A DNA stretch of 34,802 nucleotides from contig JAHFOI010000003.1 in NCBI GenBank assembly GCA_023266895.1, positions 1 to 34,802 on the forward strand, given 5' to 3'. Positions 22,571-29,503 of this stretch are shown piece after piece. Numbering within the stretch: position 1 is the stretch's first letter; every line of letters begins with the position of its first letter. Source of the DNA: Candidatus Woesearchaeota archaeon. GTDB taxonomy: Archaea; Nanobdellota; Nanobdellia; Woesearchaeales; ARS49. A program made the position numbers and the translations under genes. The notes below the pieces were generated by a model. That model did no database searches. It saw only the letters and a list, made by a program, of their open reading frames with translations, and was not told the DNA's origin.

Positions 22571-23989
22571 ATGGCTGTTGATTCTCAAACAAAAAACAAA
22601 GTTTTTCTTTTTGGAATAGATGGTGCTGCTCCAGAATTATTATTTGACACGTGGCTGAGTGATTTGCCTACAATTCGATCGCTTGTGGAAAGAGGATGCC
22701 ATGCAAAACTCAACAGCACAATTCCTCCAATTACCATTGCTGCATGGAATGCTATGCTTTCCGGAAAAGAAGTAAGCCAGTTAGGTGTTTTTGGGTACAG
22801 CTACAAAAATGCTTCTGGGGAAACAAAGATTGCAGATTCTTCATTAATCAAAACAGAACTTCTTTGGGATTATCTTGGGCACGAAAACAAAAAAACAATC
22901 GCGCTTTATGTACCATTGAGTTACCCTGCAAAGCCTATCAATGGCATTATGGTTACTGACTTTCTAACACCAGGAGTTAATTCTAATTGTACATATCCCG
23001 AGCAAATTAAAGAAAAAATAAAAACGTTGGGAAACACTGAATGCTTTTTTGACGTTGCTGTCGGACTTGCAGGACATAAAGGGCTGGAAGTTGGTGTCTT
23101 AATAGAGAAAACCTATGAAATGACCAAGATGCAACTCGCACTTTTGAATGATTTGATTACGACACACGACTGGGATGTTTGTGTTGCAGTTATGATTGGT
23201 AGCGATCGCCTTCAGCACATGCTATGGAATCACTTTGATCCCAAGCACCGCAAGTTCATTAAGAATTCTCCTCACGCCAATGCACTGAAGGAATATTACA
23301 TTTATCTTGATACTGAGCTGGGAAAAATACTGAAACAGTTAGATGATAATACTACCATTATTGTTGCATCTGACCATGGCATGGTACGGCAAGAAGGTAA
23401 AATAAACATTAACAATTGGCTTATGCAGGAAGGATATCTTGTGCTCAAGGATGGCGTTCCTTCAAAAAAAACTCGCTTTTCCACAGCACTGGTTGATATG
23501 GAAAAATCAATCGCGTATGGAAGTGGTGCATATCACGCTCGTGTTTTCATTAACAAAGAAAAAGTGGGAAAAGACTATGAAAAAATCAGGCAAGAACTCA
23601 CTCACAAGCTTAAGGCAATACCCGATGATTCTGGAAAGCCCATTAAAACAGTGGTCTTTAGAAAGGAAGATATTTATGAAAAACTCGATGATCGCGAGTG
23701 CCCTGATTTGACTATTTATTTTGACGATCTCAGGTGGGCATCAAATCCTGATTTAGGTCAAGAGAGTATTTATTCTTGGGAGACTGCACTAGGTGCAGAT
23801 ACTGCAGGACATTCACGACAAGGTTCATTTATTATTGCAGGAAAAAACATTAAACACGAAAAAAATATTGGTGAACTTGATATTTGTCAGGTTGCACCAA
23901 CCATACTTAAAGCTCTGAACTCAAAATCTCAGCACGGAATCAAAGTCAAACATGCAGAGGTGTTCACCAATGAATACGCAAATGAATAA
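22571..23989 (+). CDS. Alkaline-phosphatase-superfamily phosphodiesterase
   Basis: A 472-residue predicted phosphodiesterase/nucleotide pyrophosphatase-type enzyme. Metal and nucleophile sites are visible: FGIDGA with D17, STIPPITIAAWNAMLSG with T55 as the likely nucleophile, SDRLQHMLWNHFD, ASDHGM with D268 and H269, and TAGHSRQGSFIIAG near the C-terminus. No signal peptide is seen, so it should act in the cytosol or at the inner face of the membrane. It is paralogous to the enzyme at 27902-29428 (both have LLWDYL/PLFWEFL, YP.KP.NG and TYP segments). GGAG at 22560-22563 and TTTTATAT at 22537-22544 precede the ATG. It leads a four-gene run ending at 27612; the next gene starts inside its 3' end. 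Confidence 0.88.
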   Translation: MAVDSQTKNKVFLFGIDGAAPELLFDTWLSDLPTIRSLVERGCHAKLNSTIPPITIAAWNAMLSGKEVSQLGVFGYSYKNASGETKIADSSLIKTELLWDYLGHENKKTIALYVPLSYPAKPINGIMVTDFLTPGVNSNCTYPEQIKEKIKTLGNTECFFDVAVGLAGHKGLEVGVLIEKTYEMTKMQLALLNDLITTHDWDVCVAVMIGSDRLQHMLWNHFDPKHRKFIKNSPHANALKEYYIYLDTELGKILKQLDDNTTIIVASDHGMVRQEGKININNWLMQEGYLVLKDGVPSKKTRFSTALVDMEKSIAYGSGAYHARVFINKEKVGKDYEKIRQELTHKLKAIPDDSGKPIKTVVFRKEDIYEKLDDRECPDLTIYFDDLRWASNPDLGQESIYSWETALGADTAGHSRQGSFIIAGKNIKHEKNIGELDICQVAPTILKALNSKSQHGIKVKHAEVFTNEYANE

Positions 23990-25076
23990 TAAAACCGCCT
24001 CCCAGTTCTTTCCTGAAGCTAGTCTCATAGACACAACTGACGGGATGCAATTTAAAGTGTACTCAAATGTGCACCCTCCCGGGTTCGTGATAGCAAAGCC
24101 AAAGTACATTCCTGATGATCTAGTTTCATTCAAAGGTCTCAAGAAACGTTTCATATTTGAAAAATGCATGACACGATTTAATCTTTTCACAAGCAAAGAG
24201 ATAGCTAAATTCAACTTAGATAATCTAAAATCAAAATACCCAGAATATTTTTATGATTGCAAAAAACACAGTAACTGGTTTTTGGGCGTTCCTGTTGGTA
24301 AAATAAAGACAGTTCATGACACTCAAGCAGGGTTTCGTGAGTTCATGAAAGTCCCTGATTCAGATCTTGATGTTTACCTAAAAGATGTGAGGGGATTTGC
24401 AAATCTCTTGATTAAAAGTGGCGTAAGCCCTCAAGACATTGGAATAAGTCATTCTACACTGATGGGAAATTATACTCTTGGCAAGTCAGACATTGATATT
24501 CTTATCTTTGGCAAGAAGAATGGTTGGAAAGCAGTGCATTTTCTTGAGACTGCTTCAGATCCTGCGCTGCGTTGGAAAACAAAAGAAGACTGGGCCAAAT
24601 ACTTCAAAGACCGAGTTGTTTCCAAGAATTACTCAGTGGAACAATATGTGTTCAATATGGAACGAAAACGTGATGATGGATTTTATAATGATAATGTATT
24701 CTCTATTTTTGTCATTGAAACGCCTGACGAGCAATGGTATAATTTAGAGCAAGTTCACACGCCAATGGGAGTTGCGAAAGTTCGCGCTAAAGTTGTTGAT
24801 GCATACAATTCTATTGTCCGTCCTGGCTATTATGGAATTTCCAATGTCCAGCTTATTGAGGGCCAACTTGCTGATCTTGCCAAACTCAAACGAATTGTAA
24901 CTTGGGCAAGACCATTCACCCTTCAGGCAAAAGAAGGTGAAGCTGTTGAAGCATGTGGACTTCTCGAACACGTAACTTCTGAAAAAGATGATTTTTATCA
25001 GCTTGTGCTTGGTTATTTTGATACATACACCAGCGAACGTGGAGAACAAGAATACCTTAAGGTTCTCCAGGAGTAA
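23970..25076 (+). CDS. Predicted nucleotidyltransferase (COG1665-like)
   Basis: A 368-residue protein of the polymerase-beta-type nucleotidyltransferase fold. ISHSTLMGNYTLGKSDIDILIFG (split by me at about 160-182) contains the Ser/Gly loop followed by SDID with D174 and D176 as metal-binding acids. The N-terminal 110 residues (TDGMQFKVYSNVHPPG, KPKYIPDD) and the C-terminal part (YNSIVRPGYYGI) resemble the archaeal family of predicted nucleotidyltransferases I know as COG1665. The acceptor is unknown: protein, RNA or small molecule are all possible. GAGGTG at 23957-23962 sets ATG 23970, which overlaps the phosphodiesterase gene by 20 nt, so coupling is likely. The following gene is a paralogue. 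Confidence 0.75.
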   Translation: MNTQMNNKTASQFFPEASLIDTTDGMQFKVYSNVHPPGFVIAKPKYIPDDLVSFKGLKKRFIFEKCMTRFNLFTSKEIAKFNLDNLKSKYPEYFYDCKKHSNWFLGVPVGKIKTVHDTQAGFREFMKVPDSDLDVYLKDVRGFANLLIKSGVSPQDIGISHSTLMGNYTLGKSDIDILIFGKKNGWKAVHFLETASDPALRWKTKEDWAKYFKDRVVSKNYSVEQYVFNMERKRDDGFYNDNVFSIFVIETPDEQWYNLEQVHTPMGVAKVRAKVVDAYNSIVRPGYYGISNVQLIEGQLADLAKLKRIVTWARPFTLQAKEGEAVEACGLLEHVTSEKDDFYQLVLGYFDTYTSERGEQEYLKVLQE

Positions 25077-25082
25077 AAGATA

Positions 25083-26753
25083 ATGCACTTCTATGAAGCA
25101 TCAATAATCACAACTGTTGATGGACTTCATTGTCAAGTATATAGTAATGAACATCCCGTGCATGCGATTCTTGTCAAACCCAAGTACATTCCCACAGATA
25201 AAATTGAATGTGTTGCACTGCCACATAGATTCATTTCTGGTAAAAAAATGAATCGTCTTGATCTATGGATCAAAGATAAAATAAAACTTGCTAAATACAT
25301 TCAGGATTTTAAAAAAGCATATCCCCAGTATATCTTGAACGATCAAAACCTTGTTTTTGCAATACCTATAGAACATATAGAACGAGTATATTTTCCCAAA
25401 CGAGGATTTAAAGAACTCATGACAATGCCAAAACAACACCTTGACTCGCACTTAACAAAAGTTGTGAAACTTGGAGAATTCTTTCTGTCTGCAGGGCTCT
25501 CCATAGAAGACCTTGGAATTACTTATTCAAGCCTTTTGGGCCATTATTCAGACGCAATTTCAGATATTAATTTCATTGTTTACGGAAAAGCAAAATTTTG
25601 GTCTCTTATGAATTTCCTTGATACTGCAAAACATCCTCTTTTAAGGTGGAAACAAAATGATGAATGGGGTGAATTTAGAAAAAAAAGAAATCGCGAACAA
25701 ATCTTTTCTGAAGAAGAATTTATCAAAGTAATGTCGCGCAAAAAATCAGAAGGCTTTTTCAATGAATCATTATTTATCCTATTCTGTGCTGAAAACCCTG
25801 ATGAGGCTAGGCACAAGTGGGGTTCTGAAAAATACACTAAGATTGGACACGTTACAATTCGTGCACTGGTGAAGGATGATCACAATTCAGTAGTACGTCC
25901 TGGTCTTTATGATATTGAAGAAACTCCTGTTGTAGAACAAGGCAAAACACACCTTGTCAAACAAGTGGTTTTTTATTCACGCGATTATTGCATGCTTTCT
26001 CGAAAAGGAGAAGAGATAGAGGTGTCAGGACAATTAGAAGATGTAGAAACTGATAAAGGCGAGCGGTTTAGCAGAATTGTTGTGGGCTACTTTGATTCGT
26101 ATTTAGATGAACGACGCGAAAAAGAATACATCAAACCAATACTCAACACTGTGTTTAAAAAAACCGATAAAAATCAAGAAGCACACCAGGCTATTTGTGA
26201 ATTCTGCCAAGAAGCTCAGTTGAGTATTGGAAAAAAAACTAATTATGGCGCAGTTATTTTACATAAAGAAGGCACTGGTTCTCAAGGCTGGTTCGCAACT
26301 CTTTCACCGAAAACAGGTAGTAATCCTGAAAAAGATTTTACAATCCAAATCATGCCTCTTCAACACATAAAACATATTGCGCAAGTAAGTCAGGATCTTG
26401 AGCTTGCAAAAAACCAAGGCATTATTATTGCAAAAATTAGTTCTGCAATTCACGCGGTACTTTTAGATGAAAAAAGGCAGAATGAAAATGATGAAAATGC
26501 AGTCAGAATCGGCATATATGGCAAATCAAAACACCCTACTGAACACCTTCATATGAAGATTTTTCCTTGGACAGGTTCTATTGGTCAGCCGTACACTGTT
26601 GATAGTTCATTTGAGAAAAAAGAAACTCTGAAAGATTCAAAAACTGGTGAGGAATTTGTAAAAATGAAGCCTGTGCACAAGGTACGTCTTTCTGAGGCAA
26701 GGATCTCACAATTATCCAAGAAACTCATTGAGGCACTTCATGAAAAACATTGA
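25083..26753 (+). CDS. Degenerate nucleotidyltransferase fused to a HIT-like domain
   Basis: Residues 1-350 are a clear paralogue of the preceding protein (shared KPKYIP, LG.T.S.L.G, RPG.Y, GYFD.Y..ER). In the catalytic loop SDIN replaces SDID (D161, N163), so one metal ligand is lost and transferase activity is doubtful. Residues about 375-510 look like a HIT/GalT-type domain: GWFATLSPKTG, IQIMPLQHI and finally EHLHMKIFP with H488 and H490 but Lys at the third triad position. HIT enzymes cleave nucleotidyl-phosphate or AMP-amine bonds. At 556 residues this fusion is new to me. GGAG precedes the ATG, 6 nt after the previous stop. It may bind the same partner as its paralogue and remove what that adds (inference). 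Confidence 0.7.
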   Translation: MHFYEASIITTVDGLHCQVYSNEHPVHAILVKPKYIPTDKIECVALPHRFISGKKMNRLDLWIKDKIKLAKYIQDFKKAYPQYILNDQNLVFAIPIEHIERVYFPKRGFKELMTMPKQHLDSHLTKVVKLGEFFLSAGLSIEDLGITYSSLLGHYSDAISDINFIVYGKAKFWSLMNFLDTAKHPLLRWKQNDEWGEFRKKRNREQIFSEEEFIKVMSRKKSEGFFNESLFILFCAENPDEARHKWGSEKYTKIGHVTIRALVKDDHNSVVRPGLYDIEETPVVEQGKTHLVKQVVFYSRDYCMLSRKGEEIEVSGQLEDVETDKGERFSRIVVGYFDSYLDERREKEYIKPILNTVFKKTDKNQEAHQAICEFCQEAQLSIGKKTNYGAVILHKEGTGSQGWFATLSPKTGSNPEKDFTIQIMPLQHIKHIAQVSQDLELAKNQGIIIAKISSAIHAVLLDEKRQNENDENAVRIGIYGKSKHPTEHLHMKIFPWTGSIGQPYTVDSSFEKKETLKDSKTGEEFVKMKPVHKVRLSEARISQLSKKLIEALHEKH

Positions 26754-27612
26754 TTTGCAAATGCATACCACTGCCTCTGATGGCAAGTTTTCTCCTGAGG
26801 AAGTTGTGGAGCTTGCGGTAACAAAAGGTATGCATGCAATTGCAATTACAGATCATGACACCATTGCAGGAATTGCAGAGGCACTTCGAGTTTGCAAGGA
26901 ACACCACCTCGTCCTTGTAGAAGGTGTTGAGCTTAGCTGTCAGGAAGCCCAGTTCAAAGGTACAATTGACGTGCTCGGTCTTTTTATTGATCACCAATCT
27001 AAGGAATTAAATGAGTTTATTCAGAAGTGTAGAACTGACAGGGTGATTGAAAAGCGCGAGATGATTGAGAAATTGAATGCGCTCGGGTATGCGATTACCT
27101 TTGAAGAGCTATATGCCATAGCTGGAGAAAGTCTTGGCAGACCTCATGTTGCAAAGGTTCTTATAAAAAAATATCCTGAAGAGTTTTCATCTATTGAAGA
27201 TGTTTTTCAGAAGCTTATTGGTGATAACAAAAAAGCTTTTGTGTTTCGTAAGAAAACCTCAATTAAAGAAGCAATTGATGTTGTTAAGGCTGCGCATGGC
27301 ATTGCTATTCTTGCGCACCCAGGAAGGTATCGTGAGTTTGAAAAAGTTGTTGATTTCTTTGCACAGTGTGGAGGCGATGGTATTGAGGTTGATTACCCGT
27401 ATGATAAAATCTTGAAGATAGACGCTCAGAAAAACATGCAGATCAATGCCAAGCTTCGTGAGATTGCTCAACAAAAAAAACTTCTTTGTTCAGGCGGGAG
27501 TGACTTTCATGATTTTGAACGAGGGAGTGAAATTGGTGATGGCGGGGTGACTGACGAAGAGTTCGCTGCATTGCAGAAATACGTAACACTACAGAAAAAG
27601 AAAGCACTGTAA
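26740..27612 (+). CDS. PHP-domain phosphoesterase (COG0613/TrpH-like)
   Basis: A 290-residue metal-dependent phosphoesterase. NIDLQMHTTASDG at 3-15 (D5, Q7, H9) and ITDHDTIAGI near 36-45 are the first PHP motifs, with Gln where His is usual (DLHxH becomes DLQMH). LVEGVELSC, GRPHVAK, AILAHPGR and GGSDFH provide the remaining metal ligands. Characterised relatives remove 3'-phosphates or hydrolyse 3',5'-bisphosphates and act as 5'-3' RNA exonucleases, so a nucleotide or RNA end substrate is likely. GAGG before ATG 26740 favours this start; it overlaps the NTase-HIT gene by 14 nt, making it the last member of the operon. The gene then converges with the small RHH-like gene. Confidence 0.87.
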   Translation: MKNIDLQMHTTASDGKFSPEEVVELAVTKGMHAIAITDHDTIAGIAEALRVCKEHHLVLVEGVELSCQEAQFKGTIDVLGLFIDHQSKELNEFIQKCRTDRVIEKREMIEKLNALGYAITFEELYAIAGESLGRPHVAKVLIKKYPEEFSSIEDVFQKLIGDNKKAFVFRKKTSIKEAIDVVKAAHGIAILAHPGRYREFEKVVDFFAQCGGDGIEVDYPYDKILKIDAQKNMQINAKLREIAQQKKLLCSGGSDFHDFERGSEIGDGGVTDEEFAALQKYVTLQKKKAL

Positions 27613-27682
27613 AAAAAACCAACAAATAGACTGGCCGTGCTTCATAGTTAGACATCAGTTCAAAAGCGCATACGCACTACAC

Positions 27683-27889
27683 TTAATCAATATACCCAAG
27701 TGCGCGAAGGCGTTGTGCTACTTTTTCCTCTTCATTTTCTGAAAAGTGCACTGGTGTGGTTTTTTCAATTTTTTCTGCAATTTGTTTGAGCAAGTACACA
27801 GCATACCCCTGAACTGAAGGGAATTTCTTTTCTTTCTTGACTTGTGCCTCTAAAACTTTACTTATTTCATCAGGGATTTCTATGTTCAT
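27683..27889 (-). CDS. Small ribbon-helix-helix-like protein beside the phosphodiesterase
   Basis: A 68-residue protein: MNIEIPDEISKVLEAQVKK, then FPSVQGYAVYLLKQIAEK and a C-terminal ENEEEKVAQRLRALGYID. The first part fits a strand-helix-helix fold like CopG/RHH proteins; the ending RLRALGYID resembles a short motif that I recall from small archaeal and bacterial proteins encoded near alkaline-phosphatase-superfamily enzymes. It lies 12 nt downstream of the phosphodiesterase gene with a strong GGAGG ribosome site, so the two are cotranscribed. It might regulate the operon or bind the enzyme; neither is shown. It is the last gene of a three-gene minus-strand operon. Confidence 0.7.
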   Translation of the reverse strand: MNIEIPDEISKVLEAQVKKEKKFPSVQGYAVYLLKQIAEKIEKTTPVHFSENEEEKVAQRLRALGYID

Positions 27890-27901: not shown

Positions 27902-29428
27902 CTATAGTTGTATGTCATCAATTATGGAAACATCTTCTTGGTATTGGATTGGGGAAGTTGCAGGTGTTCCTTTGAGGGCATCAATAAGAACTTTACCATC
28001 AAAAGAACGCGGAATCGGCATGCCAAAAAGATGCAGGACAGTTGAGGCTATATCAATTATTTCATACTCAACCTCGTTCTTGGTTGAGAAATGTTCTCCT
28101 TGTGCAATAAAGATTCCTTTGCCAGAATGTGTTGAAAGCGTGGCGGGTGTAAAAAGCTCTTCCCCAAAGGTAGCAGAGTAATATCCTTTTCTAAGTTTGA
28201 TAAGTAAGTGAGGCGCTTTGGAAAGTTCAGCTCCTGTGTAAATTTCTTCGCGAGTCATGATGTTCTCAACAACCTTCACTCCATTGTGCATGAGCGCTAG
28301 TAAGTCGTTCTTAAGCTGTTGCACAACACGCGGATATTCGTCAGGCAATACTGGACCATTGAACATTTCTGTTGTATTGATGTACACCAAACCATATTCT
28401 GGGCTATTTGCGTCAACAAATGCAATGGTTTTTGTAAAATCAATGTTTCTTGCAGTGTTTCCTTGAAATAAGTCTTTGACTTTTGGTGAAATATTTTCTA
28501 ATGAATACTCAAATCCGAGTTTTACCATTCCTCGATGGAGATTTTTTTTTGAAATGCCTATTTTATTTAACAGTCGGGCTGCAAGGGGTGCTTGGCGTAC
28601 AGACAAGTGTCCTTTGGACAACAAAAAGTTGTTAAAGTTTACATGATAATCAAGAGCAATAAATCCGTGATCTGAAACAATGATTACCTCAATGTCTTTT
28701 CCTGCTGCGTCTATGAGTCGTTTGACATATGTATCTACGGTTTCATAAAAGTCTTCCATGACGTTTTTTTGCGGAGACTCTGTGGACATTTCTTTCCAAT
28801 AATGATGGCTGACTGAATCGCTTTTGGTAAGGCAGCACACTGCAAAATCCCAAGATTCTTTCGCAAGATAATAACAGAATGTGTTTACTTTTCTGTTTAT
28901 GAGGTCGCACCACATTGCAATGATTTCTTTGTGCTGTTTTTTTGCGTAGAGCTCTTTTGGGTTTTCAGAATGAAGACGATACCCAAATTTTTCTATGAGT
29001 TCCTGTTTCAATTCTTTTGGGTACGTATATTCAAGTGAATCATCAGGAGTAACATAGCCTGCAATACACAAGCCATTAAGTGGTTTGACTGGATAGGTGT
29101 TGTAGACACTAAAAATAAGGCATCGTTTTCCTGCGTTGCTTAAAAATTCCCAAAACAGTGGTGTGACAATGGTGCTCGCATTATTTATGGTGTGTTCATA
29201 GCTTTTTTCTTTGAAACTCATATTTGTGAAGACTCCGTGGCCTCCAGGTTCCCTTCCAGTCATAAATGATGTCCATGCAACAATAGAATAGGGAGGGATT
29301 GTGCTTCTGAGATTGCCTGACACTCCTTTCTTTATCAAAGAAGCAATAGTAGGTAGTTTTCCTTCACTTACCATGCGAAAGACAAGTGCTGGATCAAGCC
29401 CATCAATACCTAAGACCAAAACTTTCAT
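27902..29428 (-). CDS. Second alkaline-phosphatase-superfamily phosphodiesterase
   Basis: A 508-residue paralogue of the enzyme at 22571-23989. The metal-binding VLGIDG (D9), nucleophile region STIPPYSIVAWTSFMTG with S48 at the nucleophile position (Thr in the paralogue), SDSVSHHYW, VSDHGF and THSGKGIFIAQG are all present, so it should be active. It lacks a signal peptide. ATG 29428 is chosen over 29443 because GAGGT lies 7 nt upstream. It follows the GT4 gene by 75 nt and precedes the RHH-like gene. Placement between glycosyltransferases suggests a phospholipid, glycolipid or nucleotide-sugar substrate, but the near-identical layout with the NTase/HIT operon also allows a nucleotide substrate. 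The Ser-for-Thr change could alter specificity. Confidence 0.87.
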   Translation of the reverse strand: MKVLVLGIDGLDPALVFRMVSEGKLPTIASLIKKGVSGNLRSTIPPYSIVAWTSFMTGREPGGHGVFTNMSFKEKSYEHTINNASTIVTPLFWEFLSNAGKRCLIFSVYNTYPVKPLNGLCIAGYVTPDDSLEYTYPKELKQELIEKFGYRLHSENPKELYAKKQHKEIIAMWCDLINRKVNTFCYYLAKESWDFAVCCLTKSDSVSHHYWKEMSTESPQKNVMEDFYETVDTYVKRLIDAAGKDIEVIIVSDHGFIALDYHVNFNNFLLSKGHLSVRQAPLAARLLNKIGISKKNLHRGMVKLGFEYSLENISPKVKDLFQGNTARNIDFTKTIAFVDANSPEYGLVYINTTEMFNGPVLPDEYPRVVQQLKNDLLALMHNGVKVVENIMTREEIYTGAELSKAPHLLIKLRKGYYSATFGEELFTPATLSTHSGKGIFIAQGEHFSTKNEVEYEIIDIASTVLHLFGMPIPRSFDGKVLIDALKGTPATSPIQYQEDVSIIDDIQL

Positions 29429-29503
29429 CAGATACCTCAACATTGCAGATTATTTTATGACTACAAGCGTGATGAGTCTTTTTATAGGTTGTGAAGAAAC
29501 GGG

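Follow-up and report, generated by a model that had tools for sequence, protein, structure and literature searches.

Inert sulfate enters biological sulfation and assimilation by way of ATP sulfurylase, an enzyme known in two unrelated types: Sat, and CysND, which pairs the N-type ATP pyrophosphatase CysD with the GTPase CysN. The operon analysed here lies in a stretch of 34,802 nucleotides (the window), contig C27 of the 52-contig, 1.09-Mb genome of a Candidatus Woesearchaeota archaeon (JAHFOI010000003.1), and encodes a phosphodiesterase (PDE1), two paralogous nucleotidyltransferase-like proteins (NTase1 and NTase2), a HIT domain and a PHP phosphoesterase. Comparison with related loci suggests that the NTase1-NTase2-HIT module probably takes the place of the non-homologous ATP sulfurylase in a locus for sulfation (surface decoration), yielding adenylyl sulfate (APS) or a close analogue. 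This proposal is based on gene content, conserved gene order, a swap of Sat and module at the same locus, the absence of Sat and the conservation of motifs. No description of the module was found in the literature on unusual archaeal sulfate activation.

Exchange of Sat and the NTase-HIT module

In two families and a third context, the slot of Sat is filled by NTase1-NTase2-HIT, or by an NTase and a prolyl-tRNA synthetase-like (ProRS-like) protein; genomes, loci and families are labelled G, L and f below. In family f10, G136 has the order PK-Sat-CysC-PHP-CDPOH-Wzx, where PK is a pyruvate-kinase-like protein, CysC the APS kinase and CDPOH a CDP-alcohol-transferase-like protein, while genomes of the same genus have PK-NTase1-NTase2-HIT-HAD-PHP-CysC-CDPOH (G140), PK-NTase1-NTase2-HIT-PHP-CysC (G128) or PK-NTase-ProRS-like-PHP (G127 and G143). 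In f53, G218 has PK-Sat-CysC-CDPOH-PHP and G219 has RHH-PDE1-NTase1-NTase2-HIT followed by a PHP/CysC fusion, and the genes upstream are orthologous between the two (70.6% and 49% identity). The third context comprises G033, where RHH-PDE1 precedes a PK/Sat/CysC fusion, and G037, G099 and others, where it precedes NTase1-NTase2. The two systems occupy the same position beside APS kinase, with orthologous flanks, in G136/G145 versus G128/G140/G150/G157, in G217/G218 versus G219, and in G033 versus the RHH-PDE1 loci, and the orthologous neighbours that they share are APS kinase, the PHP phosphatase, PK and CDPOH.

The Sat of G136 is genuine (PF01747, 5.5e-75), and its CysC is 61-74% identical to those of G128, G140, G150 and G157, the active-site region being very similar between Sat-type and module-type loci of f10. 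In the CysC tree, Sat and NTase types are interleaved in f10 (clade support 0.97), and G219 groups with G217/G218 in f53 (0.78). The PHP proteins of G136 and G127 are 72.5% identical and form sisters in the PHP tree (0.997), while PHP of the NTase-HIT type lies in another clade, as though it moved together with the cassette. Where Sat is exchanged for the module and the rest of the locus for 3'-phosphoadenylyl sulfate (PAPS) stays as it was, the simplest reading is that the module does the job of Sat; because the exchange occurs inside a single genus, this claim can be tested directly by assay or complementation. PK-Sat-APS kinase triple fusions also occur (L170:9266-12067, 933 aa; L171:9110-11851, 913 aa).

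Homologs of the module were searched with a profile built from an alignment of the first homologs, covering 353 genomes of the order plus the rest of the class. Strong matches were found in 21 of the 353 genomes and in two elsewhere in the class, and no relatives were found in viral contigs. Neighbourhoods were mapped for the 23 loci, and gene orders were counted from that map. The order PDE1-NTase1-NTase2-HIT-PHP is nearly always unchanged: the NTase tandem is present in 20/23 loci (exceptions L071-L073), PDE1 lies directly upstream of an NTase in 15/23, the next gene after the NTases encodes HIT (17), a ProRS-like protein (5) or is cut off by the contig end (1), and PHP (18) is replaced by an HD domain in four loci, with one contig end. 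HIT and ProRS-like never occur together, nor do PHP and HD. Fusions link PDE1 to NTase1 (L014, L056), PDE1, HD and NTase1 (L063, L064), NTase2 to HIT (window, L014, L056) and PHP to APS kinase (L058, in G219). A preliminary description of the operon had staked its interpretation on the genes being neighbours in related genomes, and that recurrence is indeed seen.

Sat (PF01747) is absent from 23/23 module genomes, and a genuine CysD is present in only one (G245), where it adjoins its own CysC on another contig. The module-linked CysC proteins, which lie outside the window, are APS kinases (PF01583, E about 1e-40 to 1e-47; best PDB matches of the G140 protein 7yq0 and 8a8h). Strong APS kinases occur in 49/353 genomes of the order and in 8/23 module genomes, beside the module in seven of the latter. 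Among the 49, Sat is found in 17, CysD in 13 and either in 28 at E<1e-20, a cut-off that was chosen after the results had been seen and that falls in a wide E-value gap between kept and dropped CysD matches. Sat or CysD accompanies none of the seven genomes with module-linked CysC as opposed to 28/42 other APS-kinase genomes (Fisher p=0.0014, kinship ignored; p=0.0077 with G245 included).

The window operon and its proteins

The genes of the window operon and its immediate neighbours are as follows.

22571-23989, plus strand: PDE1, AP-superfamily type I phosphodiesterase (PF01663, 6.9e-38)
23952-25076, plus strand: NTase1, pol-beta-like nucleotidyltransferase of predicted catalytic type with a C-terminal OB-like beta-barrel (DxD, PF01909 in orthologs, structure model)
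25083-26150, plus strand: NTase2, paralog of NTase1 with SDIN replacing SDID (37% identity, motif)
26157-26753, plus strand: HIT domain with HxHxK motif and CxxC (predicted fold, motif)
26740-27612, plus strand: PHP phosphoesterase of the RNase AM / 3',5'-nucleoside bisphosphate phosphatase group (PF02811, 5e-14)
27902-29443, minus strand: PDE2, second AP-superfamily phosphodiesterase (PF01663, 5.3e-40)
27683-27889, minus strand: RHH-like small protein with the C-terminus RLRALGYID (BLAST to RHH-like proteins elsewhere)

NTase2 and HIT form one fused gene in the window (25083-26753, plus strand), and HIT is a separate gene in most relatives (L013, L057, L058 and others). The preliminary description had read the plus strand as four genes that overlap or lie 6 nt apart, with a second phosphodiesterase and an RHH-like gene just beyond on the minus strand, and this layout is borne out: PDE1 and NTase1 overlap by 38 nt (counted from the longest NTase1 start), a 6-nt gap separates NTase1 from NTase2-HIT, and NTase2-HIT overlaps PHP by 14 nt. 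Its family assignments and its surface-glycan setting, with glycosyltransferase neighbours, also hold: those of the phosphodiesterases and PHP by Pfam, that of the NTase by PF01909 in the orthologs together with DxD, and that of HIT by predicted fold and motif. Searches of Pfam, NCBIfam and PDB with the window proteins gave no name for NTase1, NTase2 or HIT.

PF01909 is matched by 22/23 NTase1 orthologs, mostly weakly (best 2.7e-4), and the window NTase1 alone gave E=0.16. The SDID motif is present in every NTase1 and in the single NTases of L071-L073, with one exception (SDMD in L068). NTase2, which in the window makes up the first part of the NTase-HIT fusion, carries SDIN in every full-length copy, one acidic residue short of the DxD metal-binding motif, and is probably non-catalytic on its own. 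A remote NTase homolog (L076:9385-11114, E 7e-16 to the family profile) adjoins a radical SAM/SPASM gene and possibly represents a wider family from which the module NTases come.

The predicted structure of HIT (pLDDT 85) matches Hint-like proteins, Fhit, aprataxin, GalT and DcpS with top probabilities of 0.99-1.0 and a best E of 0.01, while none of 20 members has a Pfam match. The motif HxHxK (H130, H132, K134) is invariant; fold and HxH are those of the HIT superfamily, with Lys rather than His/Gln at the third motif position. Enzymes of this superfamily are documented to act on APS as hydrolases, phosphorylases and transferases (PMC7072326). In three loci (L060:8267-8923, L063:7437-8051, L064:7374-8009), a second, divergent HIT gene, encoded on the other strand, separates NTase2 from the usual HIT.

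The ProRS-like copies that take the place of HIT (n=5) form a single clade apart from housekeeping ProRS, with a shortened anticodon domain and, in all five, an Arg-to-Asn change in the 'REF' motif. Class II synthetase cores form adenylates. Housekeeping ProRS was considered for this gene and rejected, given the separate clade and a second ProRS in G143, G244, G245 and G277. HIT or PHP as RNA processors was likewise set aside, no RNA-related partner being found among the neighbours examined.

PHP and SpoT-type HD families both include enzymes that take a 3'-phosphoryl group off nucleotides. The HD domain that stands in for PHP carries an HDxxED motif, which I take to be of the SpoT type (RSH-like). 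The window PHP matches NF041577 (9.5e-51) and NF047791 (4.3e-52) below both equivalog cut-offs, and its score of 172.6 bits against a cut-off of 400 for 3',5'-nucleoside bisphosphate phosphatase marks a family resemblance only. Its PDB relatives are 9etk, 2yb1 and 7ug9, and it resembles CV1693, a 3',5'-nucleotide bisphosphate phosphatase (Cummings et al. 2014, as cited in PMC9410882). By this likeness, PHP is predicted to be a 3'-phosphatase of the type acting on adenosine 3',5'-bisphosphate (PAP). A second PHP-like protein follows PHP in both f42 genomes (L014:13780-14670, L056:7671-8492), and PHP is seemingly split into two open reading frames in G143 (L071:1532-2492), possibly by a frameshift or an assembly error.

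Beside Sat, PK is a full pyruvate kinase; in the module-type loci of f10 it no longer has its B domain or its KxE motif. The idea that it substitutes enzymatically for PDE1 was rejected on account of these losses. In many relatives a PK-like protein is found with Sat, and it often bears an HTH at its N-terminus. The CDP-alcohol-transferase-like proteins, which are membrane proteins, occur together with CysC in Sat-type and module-type loci alike (L057, L058, L066-L068, L162-L165, L170) and may belong to the acceptor pathway.

The residues D17, T50, D212, H216, D268, H269 and H414 of PDE1 are invariant, and the predicted metal-ligand and Thr-nucleophile positions are conserved. Near the module, L013, L014, L056, L060, L063, L069 and L070 have a phosphodiesterase gene on the other strand. 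The window RHH-like protein is homologous to those upstream of PDE1 in L058, L013 and L014 (BLAST, E 2e-10 to 5e-8). A 'RLRxLGYLD'-like C-terminal tail is common to RHH-like small proteins (window; L013, L014, L056, L058-L061, L171) and sulfatase/phosphodiesterase proteins (e.g. L013:14356-15816), and is perhaps a docking motif.

A putative route of sulfate activation and its rivals

Under the proposed replacement of ATP sulfurylase, NTase1 with its SDID motif, the pseudo-catalytic NTase2 and HIT or the ProRS-like adenylate-forming enzyme would use ATP to adenylylate sulfate, so that APS or a very close analogue is formed. Considering that HIT enzymes act on APS and that class II cores form adenylates, HIT or the ProRS-like protein could pass AMP on to sulfate, either together with NTase1 or following it; I infer the reaction, sulfate as its substrate and this division of labour. 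APS kinase, where present, would add the 3'-phosphate, and a transferase would then pass the sulfuryl group on to its acceptor, a glycan or another molecule. The 3'-phosphate of the leaving PAP would be removed by PHP, or by the RSH-like HD that takes its place, and the by-product would so be recycled. Sulfotransferase-family or related genes are found near the module in L013, L059, L060, L074 and L075.

Several observations weigh against this assignment. A strong APS kinase is absent from 15/23 module genomes, including that of the window, and in loci without CysC the surroundings of the module hold no P-loop kinase candidate. Some APS-kinase genomes lack Sat, CysD and the module alike. PF00685 sulfotransferases are rare, and the window genome has none, just as it has no Sat or CysD; they are also absent from many Sat-type genomes, and PF00685 is uninformative as a genome-wide marker. 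For the window itself, the assignment to sulfate activation would thus rest on homology. The structure model of NTase1 (pLDDT 89.5) gave OB folds as top Foldseek matches and only a weak match to cGAS, that is, no convincing match to a solved nucleotidyltransferase; in the model, the C-terminal beta-barrel region is probably the source of the OB-fold matches. The CysC proteins of G203/G204 belong to a divergent subfamily, without which the Fisher test gives p=0.0076, and the p-value is optimistic because relatives are not independent. Since the sulfation reading was adopted after others had been tried on the same data, the swap should be weighed and not the p-value.

The strongest rival, which I regard as unlikely, holds that the module in the sulfate-activation slot activates another group, such as a phosphoramidate or another small anion, as a nucleotidyl donor on which the CysC-type kinase and PHP act. 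The Campylobacter phosphoramidate pathway, in which a CysC homolog acts on CDP-amidate, offers an analogy. APS kinase and PF00685 sulfotransferases are missing from most module genomes, and HIT enzymes are classical phosphoramidate enzymes, which make and break adenosine phosphoramidate (PMC7072326). Nevertheless, the likeness of CysC across locus types, up to 74% identity with a very similar active-site region, argues for an unchanged substrate, and no glutamine-kinase or cytidylyltransferase-like partner was found among the annotated neighbour proteins.

Somewhat more doubtful still is the formation of PAPS in one go, where NTase1 and HIT or the ProRS-like protein would divide sulfate adenylylation and 3'-phosphorylation between them, the module replacing both Sat and APS kinase and CysC being a retained helper in some lineages. 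This would fit G127/G143, which have NTase-ProRS-like where G136 of the same genus has Sat-CysC between orthologous PK and PHP flanks, as well as the retention of PHP or HD in the 15/23 genomes without CysC. However, CysC is kept beside the module in seven genomes, and no phosphotransferase precedent for the module NTase family was found here.

The preliminary description had proposed that the operon writes and erases a nucleotidyl or phospho mark on a glycan, lipid, RNA or protein. Its operon, families, setting and recurrence stand, and domain chemistry and glycosyltransferase neighbours would suit such a mark, but this function now appears very improbable, as it does not explain why the module trades places so exactly with Sat, why there is linkage and fusion to APS kinase, or why PHP is exchanged for HD. 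The position of the module in the Sat slot, beside APS kinase and a 3',5'-bisphosphate-type phosphatase, points instead to adenylyl sulfate, or an analogue of it, made as a soluble activated donor. A coincidental gathering of genes in a variable surface-polysaccharide island, where the flanking glycan genes do differ between loci, is scarcely credible and largely refuted by a core order kept across many families, several fusions and the mutual exclusion of HIT and ProRS-like and of PHP and HD.

Comparison with known systems

Going beyond the replacement of Sat, I tentatively suggest, with more doubt than confidence, a third, evolutionarily independent sulfate-activating system in which a catalytic/pseudo-catalytic NTase pair works with a HIT or ProRS-like adenylyl enzyme and APS kinase is also dispensable in most carriers. 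A third type of ATP sulfurylase in DPANN archaea, if true, would give a function to NTase and HIT families unnamed by Pfam and NCBIfam, would explain APS kinases working in genomes without ATP sulfurylase, and would connect sulfated polymers of the cell surface with minimal archaea.

The module shares with Sat and CysC the locus slot and the partners (APS kinase, PAP-type phosphatase, PK-like and CDP-alcohol-transferase-like proteins), but has no sequence relation to Sat and comprises three proteins (NTase1, NTase2, and HIT or ProRS-like) instead of one. Like CysND, it would be a multi-subunit alternative to Sat that feeds APS kinase, yet neither CysD nor CysN resembles it. The likeness to pol-beta superfamily NTases (PF01909) consists of the weak profile match and the DxD of NTase1, and the module NTases differ from these in an extra N-terminal region, the C-terminal beta-barrel, the tandem DxN paralog and the lack of a solved relative by sequence. 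HIT has the predicted fold and HxH core of the Hint/Fhit/aprataxin/GalT superfamily and departs from it in the third motif position, a CxxC near its start and the missing Pfam match. The ProRS-like partner retains the class II core motifs RPTSE and RWE (the latter in 4/5 copies) and is set apart from prolyl-tRNA synthetase by its clade, its altered 'REF' motif and its anticodon domain. PHP, finally, is similar along most of its length to CV1693-like 3',5'-nucleotide bisphosphate phosphatase and RNase AM, a likeness in sequence that stays under both NCBIfam cut-offs.

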